From Fidelibacterota bacterium (GTDB lineage Bacteria > Fidelibacterota > Marinisomatia > SCGC-AAA003-L08 > D37C17): DNA of 33,224 nucleotides. The stretch covers positions 1 through 33,224 of the forward strand of contig JASMKZ010000013.1 of assembly GCA_030748955.1 (NCBI GenBank), given 5' to 3'. Made by a program: the position numbers and the translations under genes. This document shows, piece by piece, positions 16,266 to 33,224 of this stretch (position 1 is the first letter of the stretch; every line of letters begins with the position of its first letter). The notes beneath the pieces were generated by a model. The model was not told where the DNA came from. It made no database searches and saw nothing but the letters and a program-made list of their open reading frames with translations.

Positions 16266-17558
16266 ATGACAGTAGCACGAATAAATAGAATTTCTGAGTT
16301 TGAAGGTAAAACCGTTCAATTGAATGGATGGGTATATAATTCCCGGCGGAGTGGTAAGATTGGATTTTTAATGTTCAGAGATGGTTTTGGCATCATGCAA
16401 TGCATTGTAGCAAAAAATGATGTGGGCGAAGAGGCATTCGAAGTATTCAAAAGCCTCACGCAAGAGTCATCTCTTTCAGTGGTTGGAGAGGTTGTGAAAA
16501 ATGACAGGGCGCCGGGTGGATTTGAAATGGTTGTCTCAGAATTGATGGTGCACCAGTTAAGCAGTGAATATCCTATTACACCCAAAGAACATGGTACAGA
16601 TTTTCTTATGAATCACCGTCATTTATGGCTGCGGAGTAAACGCCAGCATGCCATTTTAAAAGTGAGACATGAAATCATTAAAGCAGTTCGTGATTTCTTT
16701 GATTCCAACGATTTCACACTTTGCGATTCGCCCATATTTACCCCAAATGCCGCAGAAGGAACATCAACTCTATTTGGTACTGATTATTTTGGTAATACAG
16801 CTTTTTTGGCACAAACGGGGCAGTTGTATGGGGAGGCGGCAGCTATGGCTGTGGGTCGGCATTACAATTTTGGTCCAACCTTCCGAGCCGAAAAGAGTAA
16901 GACCCGGCGCCATCTCACTGAATTCTGGATGGTAGAGCCTGAAATTGCTTACTGTGAAATCGATGAAAATATGAATTGGGCTGAGCGTCTAATATTATTC
17001 ATAATTGAACGTGTTTTAGAAAATCGAAAAAATGAATTAGACGTGCTGGAAAGAGACCTTGGGAAATTAGAACATATTAAAGCACCCTTCCCTCGACTAA
17101 GTTATACAGAGTGTGTAGAATTGCTCAACAAAGGGGGTATTAATTTTACATGGGGAGATGATTTCGGTGCTCCAGAAGAAACATTCATTGGGGAACAATT
17201 TAATCAGCCCGTTATGGTTCACAGGTTCCCTACTGCCATTAAAGCCTTTTATATGAAGCGTGACCCTGAAAATGAAAAGGTGGTTCTGGGAATGGATGTA
17301 TTGGCTCCTGAAGGATTTGGCGAAATAATTGGTGGCTCCGAGCGGGAAACCGAAATTAATTTGCTGGAAGATCGTATTAAGGACGAAGAGCTAAATCAGG
17401 CTGATTATGAATGGTTTCTAGATTTGAGACGCTATGGCTCCGTTCCACATTCGGGATTTGGTATGGGGATAGAACGGGTTGTAGCATGGATTTGTAATCT
17501 CCCTCATGTGCGGGAAACCATTCCCTTTCCACGAACCATTGGAAGGCTGAATCCCTAG
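16266..17558 (+). CDS. asnS: Asparaginyl-tRNA synthetase
   Basis: Charges tRNA-Asn with asparagine. At 430 residues it is the standard bacterial form: an N-terminal OB-fold anticodon-binding domain (about 1-100, with [19 protein letters not shown]) and a class II catalytic core. Motif 2 is [21 protein letters not shown] and motif 3 is [16 protein letters not shown]. The segment [14 protein letters not shown] distinguishes AsnRS from the archaeal-type AspRS. Its presence means asparagine charging can be direct, without the amidotransferase route. GAGGAG precedes the ATG at good spacing. The nadE start lies two bases after its stop. Confidence 0.96.
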
Positions 17559-24212: not shown

Positions 24213-24245
24213 GGTTAGCCTGCGTAGCATAGGGGGTTAGTTGTT
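24213..24245 (-). repeat. Repeat A copy 1 (68-residue ORF / greA junction)
   Basis: Read on the minus strand, the copy begins at the stop of the upstream gene as AACTAACCCCCTATGCTACGC and continues AGGCTAAC. It shares CTAACCCC-TATG-(T)-CGCAG-CTAA with the other copies. The ATG opens a seven-codon frame (MLRRLTK, then TAA) whose stop abuts the AAGGAG of greA, so it could act as a coupling leader. The nearby copies extend the same frame into a lipoprotein signal peptide, which is lost here. Confidence 0.65.
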
Positions 24246-24450: not shown

Positions 24451-24550
24451 CCTTGATCAGATATGTAAACTTAATATGGTTTACCGATAAATAAAAAAGC
24501 CCTCGATTTTCTCAGGGCCTGTCTAACACTAAGTTTATTTAGGAAGTGCT
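24451..24550 (-). repeat. Repeat B copy 1 with terminator hairpin
   Basis: On the minus strand this reads: CTTCCTAAATAAACTTAG, a hairpin with GCCCT/AGGGC arms (24499-24503 and 24514-24518), TTTTTT, then TTTATCGGTAAACCATATTA, AGTTTACATATCTGATCAAGG. The AAGGAG leads straight into the 68-residue gene. The hairpin loop differs from the other copies while both stem arms still pair, which argues that the hairpin is functional as the terminator of the motA-motB transcript. Confidence 0.85.
24493..24519 (-). terminator. Rho-independent terminator after motB
   Basis: A five-base-pair GCCCT/AGGGC stem with a ten-base loop is followed on the minus strand by six T residues (24493-24498 on the plus strand are A). 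It lies about 100 bases past the motB stop and inside repeat B. Confidence 0.7.
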
Positions 24551-24621
24551 ATCTGAGATCTAAGATGTAATTTCTAATTTGGATAAGATTATTGTAGGTG
24601 AAGTCAGAATTGCTAATTATT

Positions 24622-25305
24622 TTAATTATATTTATTAATGTTTATTTCAACACGTCTATTTTGAGCACGGTTAGCTGGTATTACATTCCCACCCTCATCT
24701 CTATTTGGCACAATGGGTGCTGTCTCTGCCCGTCCAATTGGCTTTAATTTTTTAATATCAATTCCGCTTGCGTTCAATATTTCAACTATTCCGGTCGCAC
24801 GAATTGCAGAAAGATCCCAGTTGGAATTAAAGTCTGGATTGTCTTCAGGAATAGGATCATCATCTGTGTGCCCTTCAACCTCAATCATATAGTCTTTATA
24901 TGAGGATTCATCTAAAAGCTCTGTGATAGTTTTAGATATTTCTTCAATTACGGGGGTCATATTATCCATTACAATAGCAGAACCAGATGAATAAAGGGAA
25001 CTACCTGGAATTCGAATTTTTATTCCATTAGGACCCAGCTCAACTTTAACCTGACTTTCTAATTTTTTATCTTTAATAACTTTATTTAATTCTTTTTCTA
25101 ATTCTTTAAATTCATTTTCAGTATTTTCTGCAGCAAAAGCTTCTTTCATTGCCTCTGCTAAATCCTCATACTTACCAGGATCAGGGTCAGTAGTAGAATA
25201 GAGCATAACAAAAAATGCCATCAAAAGACAAAACATGTCAGCAAATGTCCCCATATAACCAGGTTGTACATCTAAATCTTCTCTTTTTACTCTTATTTTT
25301 TTCAT
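24622..25305 (-). CDS. motB: MotB-type stator protein (OmpA-like C-terminus)
   Basis: The peptidoglycan-anchored half of an ion-driven stator. It is 227 residues. The N-terminal segment YMGTFADMFCLLMAFFVMLY (about 17-36) is the single membrane helix, with Asp23 at the position of the ion-binding aspartate of MotB/PomB. A Glu/Lys-rich plug and linker follow (about 45-100). The C-terminal OmpA/MotB domain (about 110-225) has VEGHTDDDPI and NRAQNRRVEI, the usual peptidoglycan-binding marks. Its ATG overlaps the motA stop by four bases. No flagellar structural genes are in view, so it may drive a flagellum encoded elsewhere or another motion or energy system. Confidence 0.88.
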   Translation of the reverse strand: MKKIRVKREDLDVQPGYMGTFADMFCLLMAFFVMLYSTTDPDPGKYEDLAEAMKEAFAAENTENEFKELEKELNKVIKDKKLESQVKVELGPNGIKIRIPGSSLYSSGSAIVMDNMTPVIEEISKTITELLDESSYKDYMIEVEGHTDDDPIPEDNPDFNSNWDLSAIRATGIVEILNASGIDIKKLKPIGRAETAPIVPNRDEGGNVIPANRAQNRRVEININKYN

Positions 25306-26105
25306 TCTTCTGCAATATCAAAATGATTAGACGAATCAAGGTACCTATTGAGATGGTCCTGAACAGTATATGGATGTGGTTTGTTGGGCAGCATAGATAT
25401 ACCTTCGAGTAAAACCATATCACGATATTTGATGATTGAATATTGTTGCTCTAGTTTTCTTGCAGCAGGTTTAAAAAATAGATTGGCAAAAAGTACGCCG
25501 TGCAAGGTAGTAATTAATGCGATTGCCATACCACCACCAATTGCTGTCGGGTCACCGCTCATATTCGACAACATAATAACCAATCCTACCAATGTTCCTA
25601 TCATGCCGAATGCAGGAGAAAATTGAGCCATTGTATCTAATATTGTCACTACATGCATCTTCCTGTCATATGTAGTGTCTATAAAATCTTCTGTTAATCT
25701 AGATATATTTTCAGATTTCCCACCATCTAATACCATCTCCATACTATACTTTATAACGGGATTTTTATTTTCATCTACATTAAATTTTTTTTGAAGCTCC
25801 TGGATTCCACCTTTTTTTACAATTTCAGCCCAACCGATTATTTTCCCAACATCATTATATATAGTTCTTGAATTTATATCTAAATGCTTAAAAATTTTAA
25901 CCATTTCTTTAAAGGCTTGAATGACATAATTATCTTTAAAAGCAATAAATGTAGCAGCTATTGTTCCTCCTAAAACCATAAGTAAACTATTAGGCAATAA
26001 AAAGATCCAAGGATAGGGAGGAGCAGAAGGGTCTTGCCCTGATATAATTGCGTATACAAATAGTCCTATACCTGCTAAAAAACCTATTATTGTACCAGTC
26101 GACAT
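25302..26105 (-). CDS. motA: MotA-type stator protein
   Basis: The ion-channel partner of MotB. It is 267 residues with four predicted helices, two near the N-terminus (about 3-22 and 33-54) and two after a large cytoplasmic loop. The FSPAFGMIGTLVGLVIML stretch (about 166-183) and GGGMAIALITTLHGVLFANLFF (about 194-215) match the MotA/PomA pore helices, including the conserved prolines. The family's LTTLYG has His for Tyr here. The length and FGMIGTLVGL style resemble the PomA/sodium group, but the ion cannot be decided. A 526-base gene-free stretch with a candidate RNA precedes it. An ExbB/TolQ assignment is unlikely given the MotB partner. Confidence 0.88.
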   Translation of the reverse strand: MSTGTIIGFLAGIGLFVYAIISGQDPSAPPYPWIFLLPNSLLMVLGGTIAATFIAFKDNYVIQAFKEMVKIFKHLDINSRTIYNDVGKIIGWAEIVKKGGIQELQKKFNVDENKNPVIKYSMEMVLDGGKSENISRLTEDFIDTTYDRKMHVVTILDTMAQFSPAFGMIGTLVGLVIMLSNMSGDPTAIGGGMAIALITTLHGVLFANLFFKPAARKLEQQYSIIKYRDMVLLEGISMLPNKPHPYTVQDHLNRYLDSSNHFDIAEE

Positions 26106-26284
26106 AAAAACCTCATATTTAATAATATTTTTTTGAATAACTATAAGTTATATAGTTATAATTCAATAATCCTTATTCTTCACTTTAGTCCTTGATTGAA
26201 TACAGTAATTTAATAACAACATCAGATATTAGTAGCTTATTGTTTTAGATGAGAGCAGGGGGGGGATAGCATTTAGAGTGATTC

Positions 26285-26300
26285 GGGTATCGGCATACCC
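26285..26300. repeat. GGGTAT/ATACCC palindrome
   Basis: A perfect six-base inverted repeat with a CGGC loop. A close relative, GGGTATCGGTTCACCC, lies at 23636-23650 after greA. In both places the palindrome is followed by similar bases including ATTAAATAC, so the two seem to be copies of one small element. Confidence 0.5.
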
Positions 26301-26302
26301 TG

Positions 26303-26343
26303 TAAAAACACAAGCCGAAGTATTAAATACCCTCGGCTTGTGT
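26303..26343 (-). terminator. Strong hairpin terminator upstream of motA
   Basis: A perfect 11-base-pair stem, ACACAAGCCGA/TCGGCTTGTGT, has a 14-base loop. The stem end and following bases give five T on the minus strand. Facing the plus strand there is no T run, so the direction is minus. It would stop transcripts before motA unless regulated. Confidence 0.65.
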
Positions 26344-26456
26344 GATTGGACGGAACAAGTTATAAAGAAGACAATGAAAAGTCTCTAACTTGATTTTCGA
26401 CCGTCCAAATCTGTTCTGTCAGCATACTTTGAGGAGTAGTTTACCCTACAGAACGT
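26304..26456 (-). ncRNA. Candidate structured RNA with terminator
   Basis: Read on the minus strand, three hairpins follow each other. First, GTTCTGT (26454-26448) pairs with ACAGAAC (26419-26413), with an inner TACT/AGTA. Second, TTGGACGG (26408-26401) pairs with CCGTCCAA (26353-26346) and contains a nested CAAGTTA/TAACTTG. Third, ACACAAGCCGA (26343-26333) pairs with TCGGCTTGTGT (26318-26308) and is followed by TTTT, a terminator shape. About 150 bases of nested pairing in a gene-free gap, ending in a terminator, suggest a small RNA or a leader RNA of motA. I recognise no known family (not tmRNA, 6S or SRP by eye). Confidence 0.5.
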
Positions 26457-26547
26457 TAAAATGTACAAAGATTACAATATAAGTGCATATAGGTAAAAGT
26501 CTGATTTATATTGTAGGATTCTTCTTACAAGAAAACTCCATTGGCTA

Positions 26548-26632
26548 TGATTAGATATGTAAACTTAATATGGTTTGCCAATAAATAAAAAAGCCCCACA
26601 AATGCAGGGCTGAAAGTTTGTTTAGGGAGAGC
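26548..26632 (-). repeat. Repeat B copy 2
   Basis: The core at 26548-26611 is near identical to the other copies, with terminator bases AGCCCT/GGGGCT and TTTTTT on the minus strand (26586-26611). The upstream half reads AGCTCTCCCTAAACAAACTT. This copy ends the 101-residue lipoprotein gene. Unlike all other copies it is not followed by a Shine-Dalgarno and start codon but by the gene-free stretch with the candidate RNA. Confidence 0.85.
26586..26611 (-). terminator. Terminator within repeat B copy 2
   Basis: A five-pair stem plus one G-T pair (AGCCCT/GGGGCT) with an eight-base loop is followed by six T on the minus strand. It lies about 20 bases after the stop of the lipoprotein gene. Confidence 0.65.
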
Positions 26633-26937
26633 TATTTGTGATAGTGACATTGGTACACAACTTCTACTTGAATAACACTACACATTTTATCAAGACAAGT
26701 TTCTACTCCTTCACCAAATATTTCAGCTTCTTTATACCCCCAGTTTTGACATTTTTCTATTGCTGTTTTTAAAGCATCATCCCATTGAATATCAAGATTA
26801 GACAATATACCATCATATGTATAAGACATAGCAATAGTTGCACTTGCTTGATCTCCAGCTATTGGTGATAAAAATATAATTTGAGGTTTTCTCCAACACC
26901 CAACAACAAGTAATAATATAATTAGTCTGCGATTCAT
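26632..26937 (-). CDS. Small YecR-like lipoprotein
   Basis: A 101-residue exported protein. MNRRLIILLLVVGC is a compact lipoprotein signal peptide with Cys14 as the acylated residue. The mature part has four further Cys (about 63, 80, 85, 97) around CQNWGYKEAEIFG and ends VVYQCHYHK. The CxxWGYxxA...C...YQC pattern recalls the YecR-like lipoproteins, a flagellar-regulon family in E. coli, but I am not certain. Proximity to motA-motB would fit that reading. Its first codons lie within repeat A copy 2, and it is the only place where that repeat is an intact coding start. No Shine-Dalgarno is visible; it starts 13 bases after the stop of the 47-residue gene and may depend on coupling. Confidence 0.55.
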   Translation of the reverse strand: MNRRLIILLLVVGCWRKPQIIFLSPIAGDQASATIAMSYTYDGILSNLDIQWDDALKTAIEKCQNWGYKEAEIFGEGVETCLDKMCSVIQVEVVYQCHYHK

Positions 26938-26952
26938 AGGGGGTTAGTTGTT
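26895..26952 (-). repeat. Repeat A copy 2 (intact lipoprotein start)
   Basis: On the minus strand: AACAACTAACCCCCTATGAA, TCGCAGACTAATTATATTAT, TACTTGTTGTTGGGTGTT. This is the longest copy together with those at 30783 and 32828. Here the frame from the ATG is open and gives the lipoprotein signal peptide of the 101-residue gene. Confidence 0.8.
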
Positions 26953-27094
26953 ATTCGGATTCCATGGCATCTTTATAGCCTCTTTTAAAATCATCAGACA
27001 ACCATTTCCAAATGAATAGAGATAGGGATACTATAAAAGTTACAGCGACTATAATCATTGATAATACTGCTCCACCAAAAATTATTTCTTCCAT
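26951..27094 (-). CDS. 47-residue single-helix membrane protein
   Basis: A short frame, ATG at 27094 to TAA at 26951, encoding 47 residues. It begins MEEIIFGGAVLSMIIVAV, has one hydrophobic helix (about 6-30) and a charged tail WKWLSDDFKRGYKDAMESE. Repeat B copy 3 supplies AAGGA at seven to eight bases before the ATG, and repeat A follows the stop, exactly as for the longer genes of the array. Function unknown; the shape resembles small membrane-protein regulators. Its position between the two repeats is the main evidence that it is real. Confidence 0.6.
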   Translation of the reverse strand: MEEIIFGGAVLSMIIVAVTFIVSLSLFIWKWLSDDFKRGYKDAMESE

Positions 27095-27101
27095 TTTGAT
27101 T

Positions 27102-27140
27102 CCTTGATTAGATATGTAAACTTAATATGGGTTGCCGATA
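27102..27140 (-). repeat. Repeat B copy 3, lacking the terminator half
   Basis: Only the leader half is present: TATCGGCAACCCATATTAAG and TTTACATATCTAATCAAGGA on the minus strand. The terminator half is missing, and the stop codon of the 154-residue gene lies four bases away, so that gene probably reads through into the 47-residue gene. Confidence 0.8.
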
Positions 27141-27143
27141 ATA

Positions 27144-27608
27144 TTACTCACCTATAGGTGGTGGATTTGACAATAAATCTTTTGTTTCATCTTTAAAAAG
27201 CGTCCAAAGTCCATAGATACCAATCATAGTGCCAATAGGAATACTAAGAAGAGATAAACATGATAATATTATTCCAAAAACCCAGCTCCATGCTTTCTTT
27301 GTTATTAGTCCATATCCACAAATAAAACCTGGTGCTGCAAAAATGAATAAAACTGTACCAATTGATTGACCTATAATAGATGTAATTCTTATTGCAGTTG
27401 AATCTCCACTTATTTCTCCTGCCATAGGCAGAAATTGGTTAATAGCAACTCCACCAATTACCATCAATATACTAAAAGTAAGAAATAATGTACCCAAAAT
27501 ATTAATATGTTTCGTCATATCATTAGGGTCTCTCTGTTTTTTTCCACAATGCTTACATATGATTGCCTCAGTTTGAATTTCTTCTGCACAATAGTTACAT
27601 ATTTTCAT
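27144..27608 (-). CDS. Zinc-ribbon membrane protein, unknown function
   Basis: A 154-residue protein. The N-terminal 25 residues form a zinc ribbon (CNYCAEEIQ...CKHCGKKQ, Cys at 4, 7, 19 and 22), a type often found at the front of small bacterial membrane proteins. Three or four hydrophobic helices follow (about 35-57, 75-100, 103-140), with an Asn/Pro-rich end, LLSNPPPIGE. AAAGGATG upstream lies at the end of repeat A copy 3. No catalytic residues are visible and the role is unknown. The zinc ribbon would face the cytoplasm. Confidence 0.65.
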   Translation of the reverse strand: MKICNYCAEEIQTEAIICKHCGKKQRDPNDMTKHINILGTLFLTFSILMVIGGVAINQFLPMAGEISGDSTAIRITSIIGQSIGTVLFIFAAPGFICGYGLITKKAWSWVFGIILSCLSLLSIPIGTMIGIYGLWTLFKDETKDLLSNPPPIGE

Positions 27609-27627
27609 TATAACATCCTTTATTTTA

Positions 27628-27670
27628 TTAGCCTGTAAATCATAACAGTTTTTTATAAGGGGTTAGTTAG
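27628..27670 (-). repeat. Repeat A copy 3, interrupted
   Basis: On the minus strand the copy begins at the lipoprotein stop as GCTAACTAACCCCTTATAAA and, after about a dozen extra bases, continues TTATGATTTACAGGCTAATA. The ATG opens a seven-codon frame (MIYRLIK, TAA) that ends in the AAAGGA of the next gene, as in copy 1. Confidence 0.65.
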
Positions 27671-28106
27671 CATCTTTATCTGATGAACATTCTTCCATGT
27701 AAATTTTTATATTCATATCACCCAATGAGATTCTATAGAATACTTTCAGGAAGTATTGGCTACATTGATGCATGCAATCACACCATTCATCTGAAGATAT
27801 TGTGGATGCTACACATTCTTTTTTACAATCTTTAATTATGTTCTCTGTTTTTAGAGTAGCTGAACCTGAACTTATATTGCCATCTAAAATATTCATTTCT
27901 ATCTCAGGTTTTTTCACATCAGGAACTTCTGGCATAACTCCTTCTGCTGGTTCTATTGTCTCTTCTGTACTCTCTTTAGGCTCAGAGGGTTCAGTATTCT
28001 CTTCTGTATTCTCTTTAGGCTCAGAGGGCTCTGTATTGTCAATGGCTTTAGCTGCACACCCTATAAAAAAACTTCCAACCGTAAATAATAATATTAATTT
28101 CTTCAT
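27663..28106 (-). CDS. Lipoprotein with Glu/Pro repeats and twin CX3C
   Basis: A 147-residue protein I do not recognise. The signal peptide MKKLILLFTVGSFFIGC ends at lipobox Cys17. A 13-residue unit, NTEPSEPKENTEE, is then repeated (the DNA period is 39 bases, 27961-28038), followed by a third partial TIEPAEG; this is probably an extended acidic spacer. The C-terminal globular part carries CKKEC (94-98), CDCMHQC (109-115) and Cys140, so two CX3C pairs that could form disulfides. It ends SSDKDAN, and the last AN codons and stop lie in repeat A. Repeat B copy 4 provides its leader. Confidence 0.6.
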   Translation of the reverse strand: MKKLILLFTVGSFFIGCAAKAIDNTEPSEPKENTEENTEPSEPKESTEETIEPAEGVMPEVPDVKKPEIEMNILDGNISSGSATLKTENIIKDCKKECVASTISSDEWCDCMHQCSQYFLKVFYRISLGDMNIKIYMEECSSDKDAN

Positions 28107-28112
28107 TTTAGT

Positions 28113-28180
28113 CCCTGATTAGATATGTAAACTTAATATGGTTAGCCGATAAATAAAAAAGTTCTACAAATGCAGGGCTT
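28113..28180 (-). repeat. Repeat B copy 4
   Basis: On the minus strand: AGCCCTGCATTTGTAGAACT, TTTTTATTTATCGGCTAACC, ATATTAAGTTTACATATCTA, ATCAGGG. The leader half is intact but the 3' arm of the terminator stem has changed (AGAACT for AGGGCT), so termination after the symporter gene should be weak. The Shine-Dalgarno is AGGGA here. Confidence 0.8.
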
Positions 28181-28211
28181 TACTTGAAATTTTCCTACTC
28201 TTCTACAATTG
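28179..28211. repeat. Direct repeat, left copy, flanking transporter pair
   Basis: TTTACTTGAAATTTTCCTAC followed by TCTTCTACAATTG. It includes the stop codon of the symporter gene. About 28 of 33 bases match the copy at 29909-29941. Confidence 0.7.
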
Positions 28212-29690
28212 TGATGCTAATTTTATGCTACTTCTCAATTTCTTCCTATCAATAGTAAAAATAGCTAAACAATTGAATATCAATCCCCATAAACCAGCAT
28301 GGATACCAAATGGTTTTATTGGTATAGGAAAACCTATCCAGTTGCCAATCATAATACTTAAGGAAATAAAAGTGCCTATATAAATCCCTATTAGAATAGA
28401 TTTAGAACTTATAGATTTAATGTGCACGCCTAAAAATATAGCAGGTGCAATTTGACATAATAATTCAAGTTTTATCTGAAATAGTTGCCAAATCGTTTGA
28501 GGTAGATTTATTGCCATAACAACTGCAATTAGCATAATTATCCAAGATATGGACTTACCAAATAGAAGAAGTATTTTTTGAGATGAGTCAGGTTTTATTT
28601 TACGAAATAAATCTTGTGTTACAGTTGATGAAATAGCCAATAATGCAGAATCTACTGTTGACATAATTGCTGCTATGGCAGCTGCAAGGAACATTACTAT
28701 TAACCAAGAAATATTTGGTATTTGTTCTGCAAGATCAACTAACAGTAATATTGATATTTGTTCACTATTATTCCTATCTAAACCCTCTATTTGTGAAGCA
28801 CCTACTATGCCAACTATCACCATAAATAAGGTCGTTACGAAAGGCATAAATACCATGAGCTGCAATGATTTCCGCAGCGTTGATGAATCTTTTGCAGAAT
28901 AGATCCTTTGGATTGCATGAGGATAAACAGAAACTCCAACAGATACTACAAGAATTGTACTTAACCATAGACGTTTAGCGCTCCAGTCAGGTGGAGTCCA
29001 AAAATCAGGACGATATATCTGCAATTGAGAAGAAATTGCATTCAAACCCCCATATTGTTTATAAATTATATAAAATATAACTATAACACCAAATAATAAC
29101 AATATTCCTTGTAACATATCAGTCCAAGCAACACTTCTCATTCCACCTAAAGTTTCATAAATCACCATAATTAATGATAAAATAATTATAGCATTAACAA
29201 AACTTACTTGACCTGCCGTTGCACCTTCAATAATAAATCCGATTGCTTTTAAATTAGTAAGAATATAATTTCCTAAGGCAATAATGGAAATTATACTTAT
29301 GGTGATTGTTAAATGAATAGATTTAAAACGATGATATATAAAATCACCTAATGTTATAAAACTATGCTTTCTAGATAAATCATGTAGCTTAGGTGCATAT
29401 ATAAAGTATAAGCCTATAATTGCACACATGAAAGTAACTGTAACCAATGCTGTAAAACCTTGTCTGTATGCTCTACCTGAGAAACCAATCATAGTGTTAC
29501 CACTATATTGGGTTGCATAAAGAGTCAAAAATAATACAACCCCACCCATACCTCTTCCCGCTAAATAAAAATCTCCTAGACTATCTTCTTTCTTTGAATA
29601 GTAACCTAGAAAACCAACACCAATAAGAGAAAATAAATACAAAAATAAAAATATTATTCCTCCATGATTTAATAAAGGAGCTGTATCCAT
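28203..29690 (-). CDS. Sodium:solute symporter family (SSF) protein
   Basis: A 495-residue transporter with about 13 hydrophobic helices. Family marks are DFYLAGRGMGG near helix 2, the QYSGNTMIGFSGRAYRQGF segment, ETLGGMRSVAWTDMLQGILL, and AAAIAAIMSTVDSALLAISS, whose serines form the sodium site in SSF structures. Substrates range from pantothenate and proline to sugars and short acids; I cannot choose among them. A 70-residue membrane protein lies one base upstream, an arrangement seen for PanF-like carriers with a small companion. The pair is bracketed by 33-base direct repeats and sits inside the repeat-rich array. Confidence 0.9.
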   Translation of the reverse strand: MDTAPLLNHGGIIFLFLYLFSLIGVGFLGYYSKKEDSLGDFYLAGRGMGGVVLFLTLYATQYSGNTMIGFSGRAYRQGFTALVTVTFMCAIIGLYFIYAPKLHDLSRKHSFITLGDFIYHRFKSIHLTITISIISIIALGNYILTNLKAIGFIIEGATAGQVSFVNAIIILSLIMVIYETLGGMRSVAWTDMLQGILLLFGVIVIFYIIYKQYGGLNAISSQLQIYRPDFWTPPDWSAKRLWLSTILVVSVGVSVYPHAIQRIYSAKDSSTLRKSLQLMVFMPFVTTLFMVIVGIVGASQIEGLDRNNSEQISILLLVDLAEQIPNISWLIVMFLAAAIAAIMSTVDSALLAISSTVTQDLFRKIKPDSSQKILLLFGKSISWIIMLIAVVMAINLPQTIWQLFQIKLELLCQIAPAIFLGVHIKSISSKSILIGIYIGTFISLSIMIGNWIGFPIPIKPFGIHAGLWGLIFNCLAIFTIDRKKLRSSIKLASQL

Positions 29691-29691
29691 A

Positions 29692-29904
29692 TTATTTTTT
29701 TAGAGTTTTTTCAGATGCAGATATTGACCAATATCTATGTAAGAAATAAAAAATACTTATTGCATAAATTAAAGTTGAGAACAAGGCATACAATGCCCAA
29801 TGGGGGAAACCGCCAGTTGATTCCATTTTAGTATTAATAAAAAACCATGGAACAGTCATTAAAAGCAAAAAAGAATTTAGCCCATATAATTTAATACGTG
29901 ACAT
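29692..29904 (-). CDS. Small membrane companion of the symporter
   Basis: A 70-residue protein with two hydrophobic helices (about 8-24 and 35-56) and a basic C-terminus. The GGFPHWALYALFSTLIYAI segment resembles the small DUF997/YhdT or DUF3311 proteins that often precede sodium:solute symporter genes; I cannot tell which. Its stop is one base from the symporter ATG (TAATATG), so translation is almost surely coupled. The start is an ATG at 29904, directly behind one of the 33-base direct repeats. Confidence 0.7.
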   Translation of the reverse strand: MSRIKLYGLNSFLLLMTVPWFFINTKMESTGGFPHWALYALFSTLIYAISIFYFLHRYWSISASEKTLKK

Positions 29905-29908
29905 GAAG

Positions 29909-29941
29909 TTTACTTAAATTTTCCCCACTCTTCTACCATTG
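29909..29941. repeat. Direct repeat, right copy, flanking transporter pair
   Basis: TTTACTTAAATTTTCCCCAC followed by TCTTCTACCATTG, partner of 28179-28211. On the minus strand it lies four bases before the start of the 70-residue gene and forms the end of a 19-codon frame (MFNKIINYKAMVEEWGKFK) that I do not call as a gene. Confidence 0.7.
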
Positions 29942-29974
29942 CTTTATAATTAATAATTTTATTAAACATAATCT

Positions 29975-29996
29975 ATTCTTTCATAGGGGCTTACTC
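29975..29996 (-). repeat. Degenerate repeat A copy (zinc ribbon / transporter junction)
   Basis: On the minus strand GAGTAAGCCCCTATGAAAGA keeps only the CCCCTATG core of repeat A. I list it because it stands where a repeat A copy would be expected. Confidence 0.35.
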
Positions 29997-30008
29997 AAAG
30001 GTATTGGA

Positions 30009-30221
30009 TTATGTTGTAAAGAAATCAAATACATTTGCAAGTCCTGACGCAGGTTGGCCTTTATAAAATTCTGTATAAGAACACTTGCTACAGGAAACAG
30101 AACTATACTTTTTATTCTGAATATTGAATATCTTCGTCCAAAAACTCCCTGTTACTCTCATCTCTCCTACTTCATACTCTTTCTGACTACATTTTGGACA
30201 TGACCAATTATCGTGTTGCAT
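30009..30221 (-). CDS. DUF2082-like zinc-ribbon protein
   Basis: A 70-residue protein with a zinc ribbon: WSCPKCSQKEYEVGEMRVTG, then IFNIQNKKYSSVSCSKCSYTEFY. The four Cys (9, 12, 44, 47) and the SYTEFYKG ending match the small zinc-ribbon family DUF2082, often annotated as a nucleic-acid-binding protein without direct evidence. The stop lies in the AT-rich space before the transporter pair. Repeat B copy 5 gives AAAGGAG ahead of the ATG at 30221. No membrane segment is present, so it is cytoplasmic. Confidence 0.75.
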   Translation of the reverse strand: MQHDNWSCPKCSQKEYEVGEMRVTGSFWTKIFNIQNKKYSSVSCSKCSYTEFYKGQPASGLANVFDFFTT

Positions 30222-30231
30222 CTTTATTTCT

Positions 30232-30330
30232 CCTTTATTAGATATGCAAACTTAATATTGTTAGCTGATAAATCAAAAAGTCTTACAAATGCAGGGATGT
30301 GAGGCTAATGTTTACTCAGGAAGTACTGTT
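30232..30330 (-). repeat. Repeat B copy 5
   Basis: The extended copy on the minus strand runs AGTACTTCCTGAGTAAACAT, TAGCCTCACATCCCTGCATT, TGTAAGACTTTTTGATTTAT, CAGCTAACAATATTAAGTTT, GCATATCTAATAAAGG. It is the most diverged copy. The terminator stem is largely lost (CCCTGCATTTGTAAGAC), while the leader and Shine-Dalgarno remain. Confidence 0.75.
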
Positions 30331-30338
30331 AGATTTGT

Positions 30339-30767
30339 TTAATCAATATTGAGCATTTTATACCAAAAGAATGCTAGTAATAAAAAGCTGAAGATAAGAA
30401 AAATGAAGGGTATATTAATATTAAATGCATAGGGAGTTACACTAATAATAGTAAATATTATCCATTTATAAAATAGTAACTTTACAATTGAGCTACTTTC
30501 TATTTTCTCAGCTCTATATTCCAATAATAATAAAATTGATTGAACAATAAAAGTAATTGTTATACCTATTAGTATATAATGTAATAATTTAAAAATATCT
30601 AATAGATTATTAATTCCTAAAAAAGGTTTAACAACTTTAATTGGAATAATATTAAAAGAATTTGGGATTAAACTGATTATTAGGATTAATAGAAGCAGAA
30701 AACTTATCCCCATATCAAAATAAATAGTAAACTCTAGATTATTAAATTTATTTTTAAGACTCTTCAT
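30339..30767 (-). CDS. Four-helix membrane protein, unknown function
   Basis: I choose the ATG at 30767, giving 142 residues beginning MKSLKNKFNNLEF. A TTG further out at 30794 lies in the decayed repeat A lipoprotein start and has no ribosome binding site. There are four hydrophobic helices (about 17-36, 57-83, 93-112, 117-135) with short loops and no zinc or catalytic motif. No family recognised. It is very AT-rich even for this array. The gene is preceded by repeat A and followed by repeat B copy 5. Confidence 0.6.
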   Translation of the reverse strand: MKSLKNKFNNLEFTIYFDMGISFLLLLILIISLIPNSFNIIPIKVVKPFLGINNLLDIFKLLHYILIGITITFIVQSILLLLEYRAEKIESSSIVKLLFYKWIIFTIISVTPYAFNINIPFIFLIFSFLLLAFFWYKMLNID

Positions 30768-30782
30768 ATTCAATAGTTTCTT

Positions 30783-30841
30783 CACACCCAACAATAAGTA
30801 ATAATATAATTTAGTCTGCGAATCATAGGGGTTTAGTTATT
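30783..30841 (-). repeat. Repeat A copy 4 with frameshifted lipoprotein start
   Basis: On the minus strand: AATAACTAAACCCCTATGAT, TCGCAGACTAAATTATATTA, TTACTTATTGTTGGGTGTG. Compared with the intact copy at 26895-26952 there is one extra A after CTAA. Removing it would restore MIRRLIILLLIVGC, a lipoprotein signal peptide followed by EETIEYEES and a stop. So this copy is a decayed gene start. Confidence 0.75.
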
Positions 30842-30944
30842 AATCTCTATTAGCCTTTTTCAGTTTGTTCTCTGCTCTCTTTTCTTTTGCTGTTTTAGTA
30901 GTTGCTTTTTTAGTTGCTATTTTTGGATCTCTACCTTTGCCCAT
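30840..30944 (-). CDS. 34-residue lysine-rich basic peptide
   Basis: A short frame, ATG at 30944 to TAA at 30840. It begins MGKGRDPKIATKKATTKTAK and ends KLKKANRD. It is about one-third Lys or Arg, rich in Ala and Thr, with no hydrophobic stretch. Such composition suits a nucleic-acid- or ribosome-associated peptide, but nothing proves this. AAGGAG from repeat B copy 6 stands seven bases before the ATG, and repeat A follows the stop. Coding is supported by that placement and by the open frame only. Confidence 0.5.
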   Translation of the reverse strand: MGKGRDPKIATKKATTKTAKEKRAENKLKKANRD

Positions 30945-30952
30945 TATTATCT

Positions 30953-31019
30953 CCTTGATTAGATATACAAACTTAATATGGTTTGCCAATAAATAAAAAA
31001 GCACCACAAATGCAGAGCT
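30953..31019 (-). repeat. Repeat B copy 6
   Basis: On the minus strand: TAGCTCTGCATTTGTGGTGC, TTTTTTATTTATTGGCAAAC, CATATTAAGTTTGTATATCT, AATCAAGG. The leader half is well kept; the terminator stem has a mismatched centre. It comes about 27 bases after the esterase stop. Confidence 0.8.
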
Positions 31020-31045
31020 ATGAAAAAAGAATTGGAGAGGTGGGT

Positions 31046-32287
31046 TTAGTTAGTAAGAATGATGTTAACTAATGCAACTACATCAAGAATATTAATTTCG
31101 CCATCATTATTTATATCTGCACCATCAAGTTCAACAGCTGCAGGACTAAGTATATGATTAACTAAAATAATCACATCAAGTATATCTATACTATCATCAT
31201 AGTTCAAATCGCCAATTATTGAATCAATAAATTTAGTAAAGAAATTCCAAATTTCTTGACTAGAATAGTTTGGCCAATCATGGCCTCCATTAACTACTTC
31301 ATAAAGCCATACTTCATTATTATTAGAACAATTAAAATATCGATGATGAATTGTATTCATACCTAATAATAAATTATTTTCACTATTTACACATTCATTT
31401 TGTCCAATCCAAAATTCTATTACTTCATTCATTCCTGGATATGGTCCCCAATAGGTATCGTTTAGGTCTCCATCCCACAATGTTACATTATCATTTGTTC
31501 CATGTATTTCTAATACTGGTATTTGTTCAGTAGAACAATCAGTCCAAGATTCCCCAAACATTGTACCAGCAACTGGAGCAATAGCTCCAAATTTATCTCC
31601 TGCAAAACAAGCCAACATATAAGACATCTCAGCACCATTTGACATGCCAGATGCAAATGTATTATCGGAACTTAAATCGTATTCATTTTGAAGGTGCACT
31701 GCTAATGTACTTAGAAAGCCTACATCATCCACGGTTTGATTTTGATGGAAATTATAGCCAACATTCCAAAATCTATCACCATTCTGATCAATTGTACCAT
31801 CTGGATAACAAACAGCAAAACCATTCTCATCAGCAACAGATTGCATCCCTGAATAGTTATACATTCCAATTGCTGAACCTGTAAATCCATGCATTAAAAA
31901 TATTAGCGGTGCATTTGGAGGTATTGATTCAGGAATATATAAAATATATTGACGCATATCTCCTTCATACATGAATGTAAATTCTTGCGGTAGATAGCTA
32001 CAGTATCCATTAGAATCTGTATATATATCGCCACAATCGCCACAATCGAAACTATATTCCGCACATTGAAAATCATAACCCCATTCTCCATCATCACACC
32101 AACCATCGCCAACCCATGCATCTGTAATACCATCACCGTTATAATCTTCACAATATTCATTGTATACATAACAATCAAAACCAAATCCAGGTTCATTATT
32201 ACAAAAATATTGCCCATTACAGTCAAACATAAGCATATTTTCATCACAATCTTGTCCCCAACTGAGACTTAATAGCGATAACAGCAA
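31046..32287 (-). CDS. Secreted PHB-depolymerase/feruloyl-esterase-like hydrolase with dockerin-like tail
   Basis: A 413-residue exported alpha/beta hydrolase. A hydrophobic N-terminus is followed by a Cys/Asp-rich head (about 14-96). In it, GDGWCDDGEWGYDFQCAEYS and FDCGDC resemble a Lin-12/Notch-type calcium-binding repeat. The catalytic domain (about 100-355) has the FLMHGFTGS oxyanion strand, nucleophile Ser216 in GMSNG, Asp266 in HGTND, and His336 in GGHDWP, matching the LpqC/feruloyl esterase/PHB depolymerase family. Two dockerin-like calcium repeats end the protein (GDLNYDDSIDILDVIILVNH, DINNDGEINILDVVALVNII). The TTG at 32287 gives a signal peptide lacking basic residues. A start at ATT 32308, four bases after AGGAGG, would give MRNIYILLLLSLLSLSWGQ, a better signal peptide, so the true start may be there. 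Confidence 0.82.
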   Translation of the reverse strand: MLLSLLSLSWGQDCDENMLMFDCNGQYFCNNEPGFGFDCYVYNEYCEDYNGDGITDAWVGDGWCDDGEWGYDFQCAEYSFDCGDCGDIYTDSNGYCSYLPQEFTFMYEGDMRQYILYIPESIPPNAPLIFLMHGFTGSAIGMYNYSGMQSVADENGFAVCYPDGTIDQNGDRFWNVGYNFHQNQTVDDVGFLSTLAVHLQNEYDLSSDNTFASGMSNGAEMSYMLACFAGDKFGAIAPVAGTMFGESWTDCSTEQIPVLEIHGTNDNVTLWDGDLNDTYWGPYPGMNEVIEFWIGQNECVNSENNLLLGMNTIHHRYFNCSNNNEVWLYEVVNGGHDWPNYSSQEIWNFFTKFIDSIIGDLNYDDSIDILDVIILVNHILSPAAVELDGADINNDGEINILDVVALVNIILTN

Positions 32288-32473
32288 TAATATGTAGATA
32301 TTTCTAATACTTCCTCCTAAATGTATATATCAATTAAAATTTACAGCACTTTACCTGATGCATCCAAATGGCTCTATCACATAAAATTTTCCAAAAAATA
32401 TTTGAGAATGGGTGTAAGACTTTTGTTATGTTGGTACACCCCGTTGAAAGTTTCCCTATGGGTTTAAATCAAG

Positions 32474-32794
32474 TTAGGAAATAATCCTTGTTGTATCTTT
32501 AGAATCGTGTTCGATTGGTGGCGCTGGTGGAGTGATTATCTCCTTATCTTTAGGGAAGTATCTGCCCTTTGAATTTTCTTCATTTCTAAATTCATACATT
32601 TTGTCCATCAAATGAAGATTATCTATAATACCGCCTTCAGGAGTTTCTCTTAATGGATGATCCCAATCCATACTATTTACATCATTTTGCTCCCAATAAT
32701 CTTCTTGAAATCGTCCATAATTCTTTGGTGGATTTTTATCCATATAAATGGATAAAGAAGTTGATAATAATAATGCTGTTAAGAAAGCTCCCAT
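32474..32794 (-). CDS. Small exported protein, unknown function
   Basis: A 106-residue protein with a short hydrophobic N-terminus, MGAFLTALLLSTSLSIYM, that could be a signal peptide or anchor. It is followed by a charged, Asn/Asp/Pro-rich and apparently little-structured region (GRFQEDYWEQNDVNSMDWDH and a late ITPPAPPIE). No family recognised and no Cys. No Shine-Dalgarno is visible before the ATG at 32794; a perfect hairpin ends 13 bases upstream. I consider it a probable gene because the frame is open and starts with a plausible export signal. Confidence 0.5.
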   Translation of the reverse strand: MGAFLTALLLSTSLSIYMDKNPPKNYGRFQEDYWEQNDVNSMDWDHPLRETPEGGIIDNLHLMDKMYEFRNEENSKGRYFPKDKEIITPPAPPIEHDSKDTTRIIS

Positions 32795-32806
32795 TTTACT
32801 GAAATA

Positions 32807-32843
32807 TATTACTTATTGTTAAGTCAACTAACAATAAGTAATA
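32807..32843. repeat. Perfect 15-bp inverted repeat, 7-base loop
   Basis: The arms TATTACTTATTGTTA and TAACAATAAGTAATA pair without mismatch around AGTCAAC. The right arm is the tail of repeat A copy 5; the left arm is a reversed partial copy of the same bases. It lies 13 bases before the 106-residue gene on the minus strand. There is no following T run, so it is not an ordinary terminator. Confidence 0.85.
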
Positions 32844-32880
32844 ATATAATTAGACTGTTAATCATAGGGGTTAGTTAGCG
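32828..32880 (-). repeat. Repeat A copy 5 with nonsense lipoprotein start
   Basis: On the minus strand: CGCTAACTAACCCCTATGAT, TAACAGTCTAATTATATTAT, TACTTATTGTTAG. The ATG opens MINSLIILLLIVS and then TGA, exactly where the intact copy has the lipobox Cys (TGT). It begins at the stop of the 103-residue gene. Confidence 0.75.
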
Positions 32881-33182
32881 TCTGGTAATATCTTGCTTAT
32901 TAAAGTTAGTAGATTGACTTTAGTCGTAGAATCTGATTCACTATAAGCTGATTTTATACCATAATCAATTAGTAATATATCTTTTACATCGAGTTGTGTT
33001 GTTCCACCTTCAATATTAATAATTCTAGCAACTTTACCTTTTTTTGAATTGACAATAATTTTCCCATCTTCATACTTTTTAATTGTGCCAGTAACATATG
33101 TGCCATACTTATCTATTATAGTAACAGTAGGTTCTTCAGCAAAAAGACTTCCAAACATAAATATTATTATTATTTTTTTCAT
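32871..33182 (-). CDS. Small exported protein, unknown function
   Basis: A 103-residue protein. MKKIIIIFMFGSLFAEE is a plausible cleaved signal peptide (cut after about residue 15). The mature part, about 20-85, looks beta-rich (VTIIDKYGTYVTGTIKKYED, KIIVNSKKGKVARIINIEGG), like a small barrel that might bind surfaces or nucleic acid; no family recognised. It ends ILPDAN, sharing the AN-stop ending with the 147-residue lipoprotein because both stops lie in repeat A. AAGGAG from repeat B copy 7 precedes the ATG. Confidence 0.6.
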   Translation of the reverse strand: MKKIIIIFMFGSLFAEEPTVTIIDKYGTYVTGTIKKYEDGKIIVNSKKGKVARIINIEGGTTQLDVKDILLIDYGIKSAYSESDSTTKVNLLTLISKILPDAN

Positions 33183-33188
33183 TTGACT

Positions 33189-33224
33189 CCTTGATTAGAT
33201 ATGTAAACTTAATAGGGTTAGCCG
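33189..33224 (-). repeat. Repeat B copy 7, cut by window edge
   Basis: The leader half is present: CGGCTAACCCTATTAAGTTT and ACATATCTAATCAAGG on the minus strand, one base shorter in the middle than the others (CCTATTAAG for CCATATTAAG). The terminator half lies outside the window. It shows the array continues to the right. Confidence 0.8.

Follow-up and report, generated by a model that had tools for sequence, protein, structure and literature searches.

A probable small RNA gene in front of motA and its two-class family in one genus of Neomarinimicrobiota

The window, by which we mean the whole 33,224-nucleotide stretch of DNA that was analysed, belongs to a draft genome (G000) of 1.79 Mb in 355 contigs. 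It contains a gap between the start of a motA-like gene (26105) and a yecR-like gene (26632) in which no ORF longer than 36 aa is found. The minus strand of 26285–26547 folds at -78 kcal/mol with a z score of -6.29, a fold that none of 200 shuffles equalled, while the plus strand of the same interval reaches a z score of only -3.87. The first-pass annotation had placed three consecutive hairpins in 26304–26454 with a T run behind the last of them; all of these stems are present, they exceed chance when taken together, and the T run corresponds to the UUUU that follows the terminator stem on the minus strand. The stem lengths needed partial correction, the 7 bp of H1 and of the nested stem being right and the outer stem of H2 and the terminator comprising 10 rather than 8 and 13 rather than 11 bp. 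H2 and the terminator are the source of the fold strength, and H1 taken singly (z -0.67) is not significant against shuffles. It had also been remarked that the repeat-B copy at this site lacks a start codon, and this is indeed the sole window copy with neither RBS nor start codon directly behind it. Likewise, no known RNA family had been recognised, in agreement with a search of Rfam 15, which returned no match in the window at the gathering threshold and only chance-level matches at a relaxed one.

Table 1 Features of the small-RNA locus in the window
Feature	Position	Strand	Evidence or remark
motA/pomA-like stator gene	25302–26105	minus	MotA_ExbB, 5.4e-22; merely the downstream neighbour of the RNA
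Decayed repeat-B-like copy	26176–26215	minus	repeat family D6, 78% to the 28099 copy; closes a cassette-like unit
Small-RNA gene, long class (a)	26304–26504	minus	fold z about -6; homologues in G001, G005 and G002; no ORF; no Rfam match
Intrinsic terminator	26304–26343	minus	13-bp stem (26308–26343), then UUUU; z -8.0
Hairpin H2	26344–26411	minus	10-bp outer stem with bulge and nested 7-bp CAAGTTA/TAACTTG; z -4.6
Hairpin H1	26413–26454	minus	7-bp outer stem GTTCTGT/ACAGAAC; stem predicted at the same place in relatives
CUCCUC, anti-Shine-Dalgarno-like motif	26431–26436	minus	H1 loop; mean unpaired probability 0.87
Start element TATAAATCAG	26501–26510	minus	conserved; -10-like or first transcript bases
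Palindrome TTGTAAGAAGAATCCTACAA	26511–26530	minus	proposed response-regulator operator; ends just before promoter-like TATAAATC
Repeat-B copy	26544–26584 (26553–26573 within)	minus	array promoter/RBS element upstream, no RBS or ATG after it

The minus strand of 26304–26504 is very probably an sRNA gene. Of the marks of an intrinsically terminated bacterial sRNA gene it has the stable GC stem with a U run behind it and the lack of an ORF, and its own promoter is predicted from conservation. The 3′ end is given by the U run at 26304–26308 and the 5′ end carries an uncertainty of about 10 nt; either TATAAATC may serve as the -10 element, or TACAAT inside the palindrome may do so with a start at ATCAG. 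An A[TC]CAG sequence stands at the position equivalent to the start element in all nine aligned RNAs, and the 5′ block UUACCUAUA is strongly conserved within the long class. The repeat-B element just upstream is probably not the RNA's own promoter, because the homologues have no repeat-B copy, and we disfavour it in that role.

With the window sequence as query, blastn retrieved nothing but the query itself from 40 related genomes. Among the loci fetched for the repeat array, nhmmer picked out a homologue in G001 that is full-length and about 60% identical (E 3.8e-6), and the G001 sequence in turn revealed a copy in G005, which is 87% identical to it, and a diverged copy in G002 (G002a). A second G002 copy (G002b) lies in tandem with the latter (37 bits, E 8.6e-6, fold z -7.4). 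When a covariance model of the long class (R1) was run on 41 genomes of the order, strong matches were confined to four species of one genus, with one per genome and the tandem copy of G002 as the only extra one; since R1 was built from the four seed sequences, their matches to it are a matter of course, and the independent evidence is the original nhmmer and blastn matches. Weak R1 matches in other genera and at the fetched loci L073, L076 and L079 were not accepted, the last three being ORF-like or tRNA sequence. No long-class copy was found in the drafts of G003 and G004, which is weak evidence of absence since four to six genomes, all of them drafts, are concerned. In G001, G005 and G002 the same small membrane ORF lies downstream of the RNA, and in G001 and G002 a fatty-acid desaturase gene lies upstream. 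This membrane ORF was not found in G000, where the RNA sits in the repeat-B array before motA.

The homologues keep the strand and the architecture of the window RNA with altered stem sequences. Each relative shows the same order of a CUCC-motif stretch, the long imperfect hairpin H2 and a terminator, except that G002a lacks a terminator and probably uses the one of the downstream G002b. The outer stem of H2 reads GAUU.GGACGG/CCGUCCAAUC in the window, AUAUUAUGUU/AGCAUAAUAU in G001 and G005, and CUCC..ACUAA/UUAGUGGAG in G002, the last being one of two close alternative pairings. Thus, by individual folds, pairing is kept between unrelated sequences in three lineages (the window; G001/G005; G002), and the terminator stem is likewise conserved in G001 and G005 with changes on both sides. 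We claim no global covariation score for the window copy because MAFFT misregisters its H2 stem. The compensatory changes for which the first-pass annotation had proposed to look are accordingly present in H2 and the terminator, and the sister-species homologues, with strand, architecture and terminator kept, uphold its suggestion that an RNA gene here occupies a gene's place in the array.

A sequence-only profile with six members (R2) revealed a second, shorter class of about 125 nt in G000 (contig C111), G001, G004 and G005. In G000, G001 and G004 these RNAs are syntenic and lie directly behind a gene for a 210-aa LuxR-type regulator (Response_reg and GerE domains), which itself follows a histidine kinase gene; synteny is established for these three, and the G005 copy aligns throughout its sequence. 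The loop CCTTCCTCCTTCAGTTAAC is invariant in all four short-class RNAs, and their terminator contains a compensatory exchange of a G-C for an A-U pair. The window RNA is a member of a new RNA family whose functional kind is already known, and which, as far as found, comprises two classes and is limited to one genus of Neomarinimicrobiota.

Most family members have a palindrome, TGTARGR-N4-YCYTACA, directly upstream; the site at 26511–26530, a perfect match to this family-wide pattern, was missed in the first reading of the window. In the window RNA and the four short-class RNAs, TTGTAAGA-N4-TCCTACAA stands directly before TATAAATCAG/TAAAATCAG, the site of the G005 short copy being somewhat diverged. 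The long-class copy of G005 has a perfect palindrome, TGTAGGGAGCTCCCTACA; before that of G001 the site has diverged, and the upstream alignment shows none before G002a and a half-site only before G002b. The pattern TGTARGR-N2-6-YCYTACA has seven sites in the 482 kb of non-redundant sequence that was fetched, while 60 shuffles averaged 0.12 and never exceeded 1. Every one of the seven stands either by one of these RNAs or ahead of the regulator gene: at the long-class RNAs of G000 and G005, at the short-class RNAs of G000, G001 and G004, and in the kinase–regulator gaps of G000 and G004. The fetched loci are a non-random sample, in whose choice the palindrome pattern played no part. As a 5′ RNA hairpin 26511–26530 is disfavoured, because its arms keep their sequence instead of covarying and an A-C mismatch is present in several copies.

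The palindrome before the regulator gene suggests autoregulation and would tie the regulator to the palindrome, and we put control of the sRNA by the two-component system encoded on C111 at roughly even odds. At the sRNA the palindrome overlaps the presumed -10 element, where an activator site does not usually lie, and it could be a repressor site. The sites between the kinase and regulator genes of G000 and G004 (locus L168 near 638 on the minus strand; locus L149 near 638 on the plus strand) form a third setting of the palindrome; behind them comes a leader that carries CUCUCCU some 120 nt ahead of the regulator start, which may reflect autoregulation or a decayed third RNA.

CUCC is present in all nine RNAs, as CUCCUC in the long class and as CCUCCUU in the short class, and its sequence is that of the anti-Shine-Dalgarno (anti-SD) core of 16S rRNA. 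In the six RNAs computed the motif is mostly unpaired (unpaired probability 0.41–0.98), so that the family has the accessible, SD-complementary pyrimidine motif that characterises SD-covering sRNAs. The hairpins that enclose the motif in the relatives are no more stable than shuffles and, as the same holds for H1, the motif could just be unstructured. No Hfq is present in any of the six genomes of the genus, in a search that was positive in five of 14 control genomes. Within the window, the best complement of the loop is a 10-nt match, TTGAGGAGTA, at the RBS of a class II tRNA synthetase gene (16266–17558), and the motA RBS has five matching bases (TGAGG). Four of the 28 gene starts in the window match the loop with at least six bases where 1.1 are expected from shuffled loops, a weak and only suggestive test, as any anti-SD motif would give some matches. 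An anti-SD mode of action is in our estimate an even bet.

motA follows the terminator on the same strand, and a riboswitch-like leader that would control motA-motB through it had been offered in the first-pass annotation beside the RNA gene. We now find a cis-acting leader very unlikely because the homologues in G001, G005 and G002 stand before other, unrelated genes. Moreover, no such RNA lies ahead of the motA homologues of G001 and G002, the stretch of about 200 nt from the terminator to motA includes a decayed repeat-B copy, and no Rfam riboswitch matches. motA may be affected through read-through or pairing; a scan of the genome contigs for motA gave no confirmed relative. Still less credible is a 6S or other housekeeping RNA that has diverged too far for Rfam. 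A length near 200 nt and a single long-class copy in most genomes would suit it, but the RNA folds into separate hairpins and not into a single long rod with bubbles, tandem and short paralogues exist, sister genera have none, and RF00013 gives no covariance match at the 26304–26504 locus. In G001, G002 and G005, which carry the RNA, sub-threshold 6S matches also lie at other places. These matches, which are full-length with 19–31 bits (G001:C62:4206, G002:C19:63832, G005:C74:5727, G018:C8:7697 and others), recur in genomes across the family and may be true, undetected Marinimicrobia 6S RNAs.

The upstream region resembles that of the GacA-controlled RNAs RsmX/Y/Z and CsrB, which share with the present family a LuxR-type response-regulator circuit (a proposed one here) and an almost identical TGTAAG-N6-CTTACA upstream of the sRNA. 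In particular, TGTAAG-N6-C(C/T)TACA (TGTAAGAAGAATCCTACA in the family) comes very close to the GacA box of the rsmY upstream activating sequence, TGTAAGCATTCTCTTACA (PMC4353343), a likeness of layout alone, and unlike in those systems the palindrome here abuts the start element. A Gac/Rsm-type sponge (of the kind of CsrB, RsmY and RsmZ) that titrates a CsrA-like protein is nevertheless quite improbable: RsmX/Y/Z and CsrB bind CsrA via GGA loops, whereas an inspection of the sequences and folds shows no repeated GGA loop motifs here, since the window RNA has a single GGA (GGACGG), which lies in the H2 stem, and the short class has none, and the conserved motif is the complement, CUCC. A family sRNA might also act otherwise, by binding a protein or by pairing via H2 or the 5′ UUACCUAUA, and be transcribed from repeat B or constitutively. 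The strong conservation of UUACCUAUA in the long class, the promoter-like repeat-B element just upstream in the window and the missing palindrome of G002a speak for such a role, which we judge somewhat unlikely, as CUCC is the feature kept in both classes and these RNAs show a strong enrichment of the palindrome.

Our preferred reading, to which we assign a probability of about 0.55, is that of a two-component-controlled, Hfq-independent, trans-acting sRNA that covers SD sites. A transcript of about 200 nt would run on the minus strand from about 26504 to 26304, most likely from its own promoter (the palindrome and TATAAATC), and stop at the 13-bp terminator. A LuxR/NarL-type response regulator probably binds the palindrome, and its likeliest source is the kinase–regulator pair whose gene directly precedes the short paralogue on C111 of G000. 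The exposed pyrimidine-rich loop CUCCUC would cover the GGAG RBS of target mRNAs and lower their translation with no need for Hfq. This chain, in which a signal would pass through the kinase and the LuxR-type regulator to the sRNA and the SD sites, is proposed because CUCC is mostly unpaired, Hfq is absent and LhrC and RsaE offer a precedent. LhrC1-5 of Listeria monocytogenes are multicopy sRNAs whose expression requires LisRK and whose C/U-rich loop motif binds the SD region, Hfq being dispensable for lapB (PMC4132741). The window RNA resembles them in being multicopy, in its link to a two-component system (by predicted control here), in its pyrimidine-rich SD-complementary motif and in the lack of Hfq. 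It has no sequence relation to LhrC, however, and it differs in its motif (CUCCUC/CCUCCUU instead of UCCC), in its response-regulator operator and in forming two diverged classes instead of five near-identical copies. RsaE and other UCCC-motif sRNAs of Staphylococcus and Bacillus are likewise described, as cited in PMC4132741, as carrying a motif complementary to SD sequences; on that description the motif is what the window RNA shares with them, whereas sequence and phylum are unrelated and no Rfam family was matched here.

More tentatively, and with less than even odds, we suggest a circuit of the genus's own in which a LuxR-type regulator at a GacA-box-like palindrome drives several Hfq-independent anti-SD sRNAs, a convergent combination of Gac/Rsm wiring with LhrC-like action. 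Marinimicrobia are an uncultured phylum that is common in the ocean, and a full-text search of the open literature gave no small RNA described for it. With the family comes a concrete example of an sRNA system free of Hfq, for which a regulator, an operator and a seed motif are proposed; all of these can be tested with reporters and without culturing. The family also illustrates how a gap with RNA structure between the cassettes of an array can turn out to be an RNA gene in its own right.

Several observations concern the array itself. Many small, mutually unrelated genes of one strand are headed by a common spacer, a terminator with CCATATTAAGTTTACATATCTAATCAAGGAG and ATG behind it, in the manner of a cassette array. 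The spacer has seven copies in the window (24456–33219) and 14 in the genome; it is also seen on contigs C155, C288, C304, C308, C316 and C333 and in the sister genomes G001, G004 and G005. Repeat B is common to named relatives (Candidatus Neomarinimicrobiota / Marinimicrobia), and a scan of viral contigs for it gave no match. On C155 a gene for a 346-aa tyrosine recombinase (locus L095, G000:C155:22500-24630) has a tRNA gene and a repeat-B cassette as neighbours and may encode the integrase of the array island; the C terminus of the protein has a nearly identical counterpart in G001. An integron was rejected, as this recombinase, beside a tRNA gene, scores 36.9 of 265 bits, far under the integron-integrase cut-off. 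A second repeat, A (AACTAACCCCCTATGATTCGCAGGCTAATTATATTATTACTTATTGTTGGGTGT), occurs at gene junctions of the window (24228–24245, 26935–26952 and 30824–30841) and at loci L032, L045, L049 and L053. Its in-frame translation reads like a lipoprotein signal peptide (MIRRLIILLLIVGC), so that this junction repeat seems to give the following genes a start codon and an export signal; the YecR-like lipoprotein gene (26632–26937), which adjoins motAB in the array, has its start inside a repeat-A copy.
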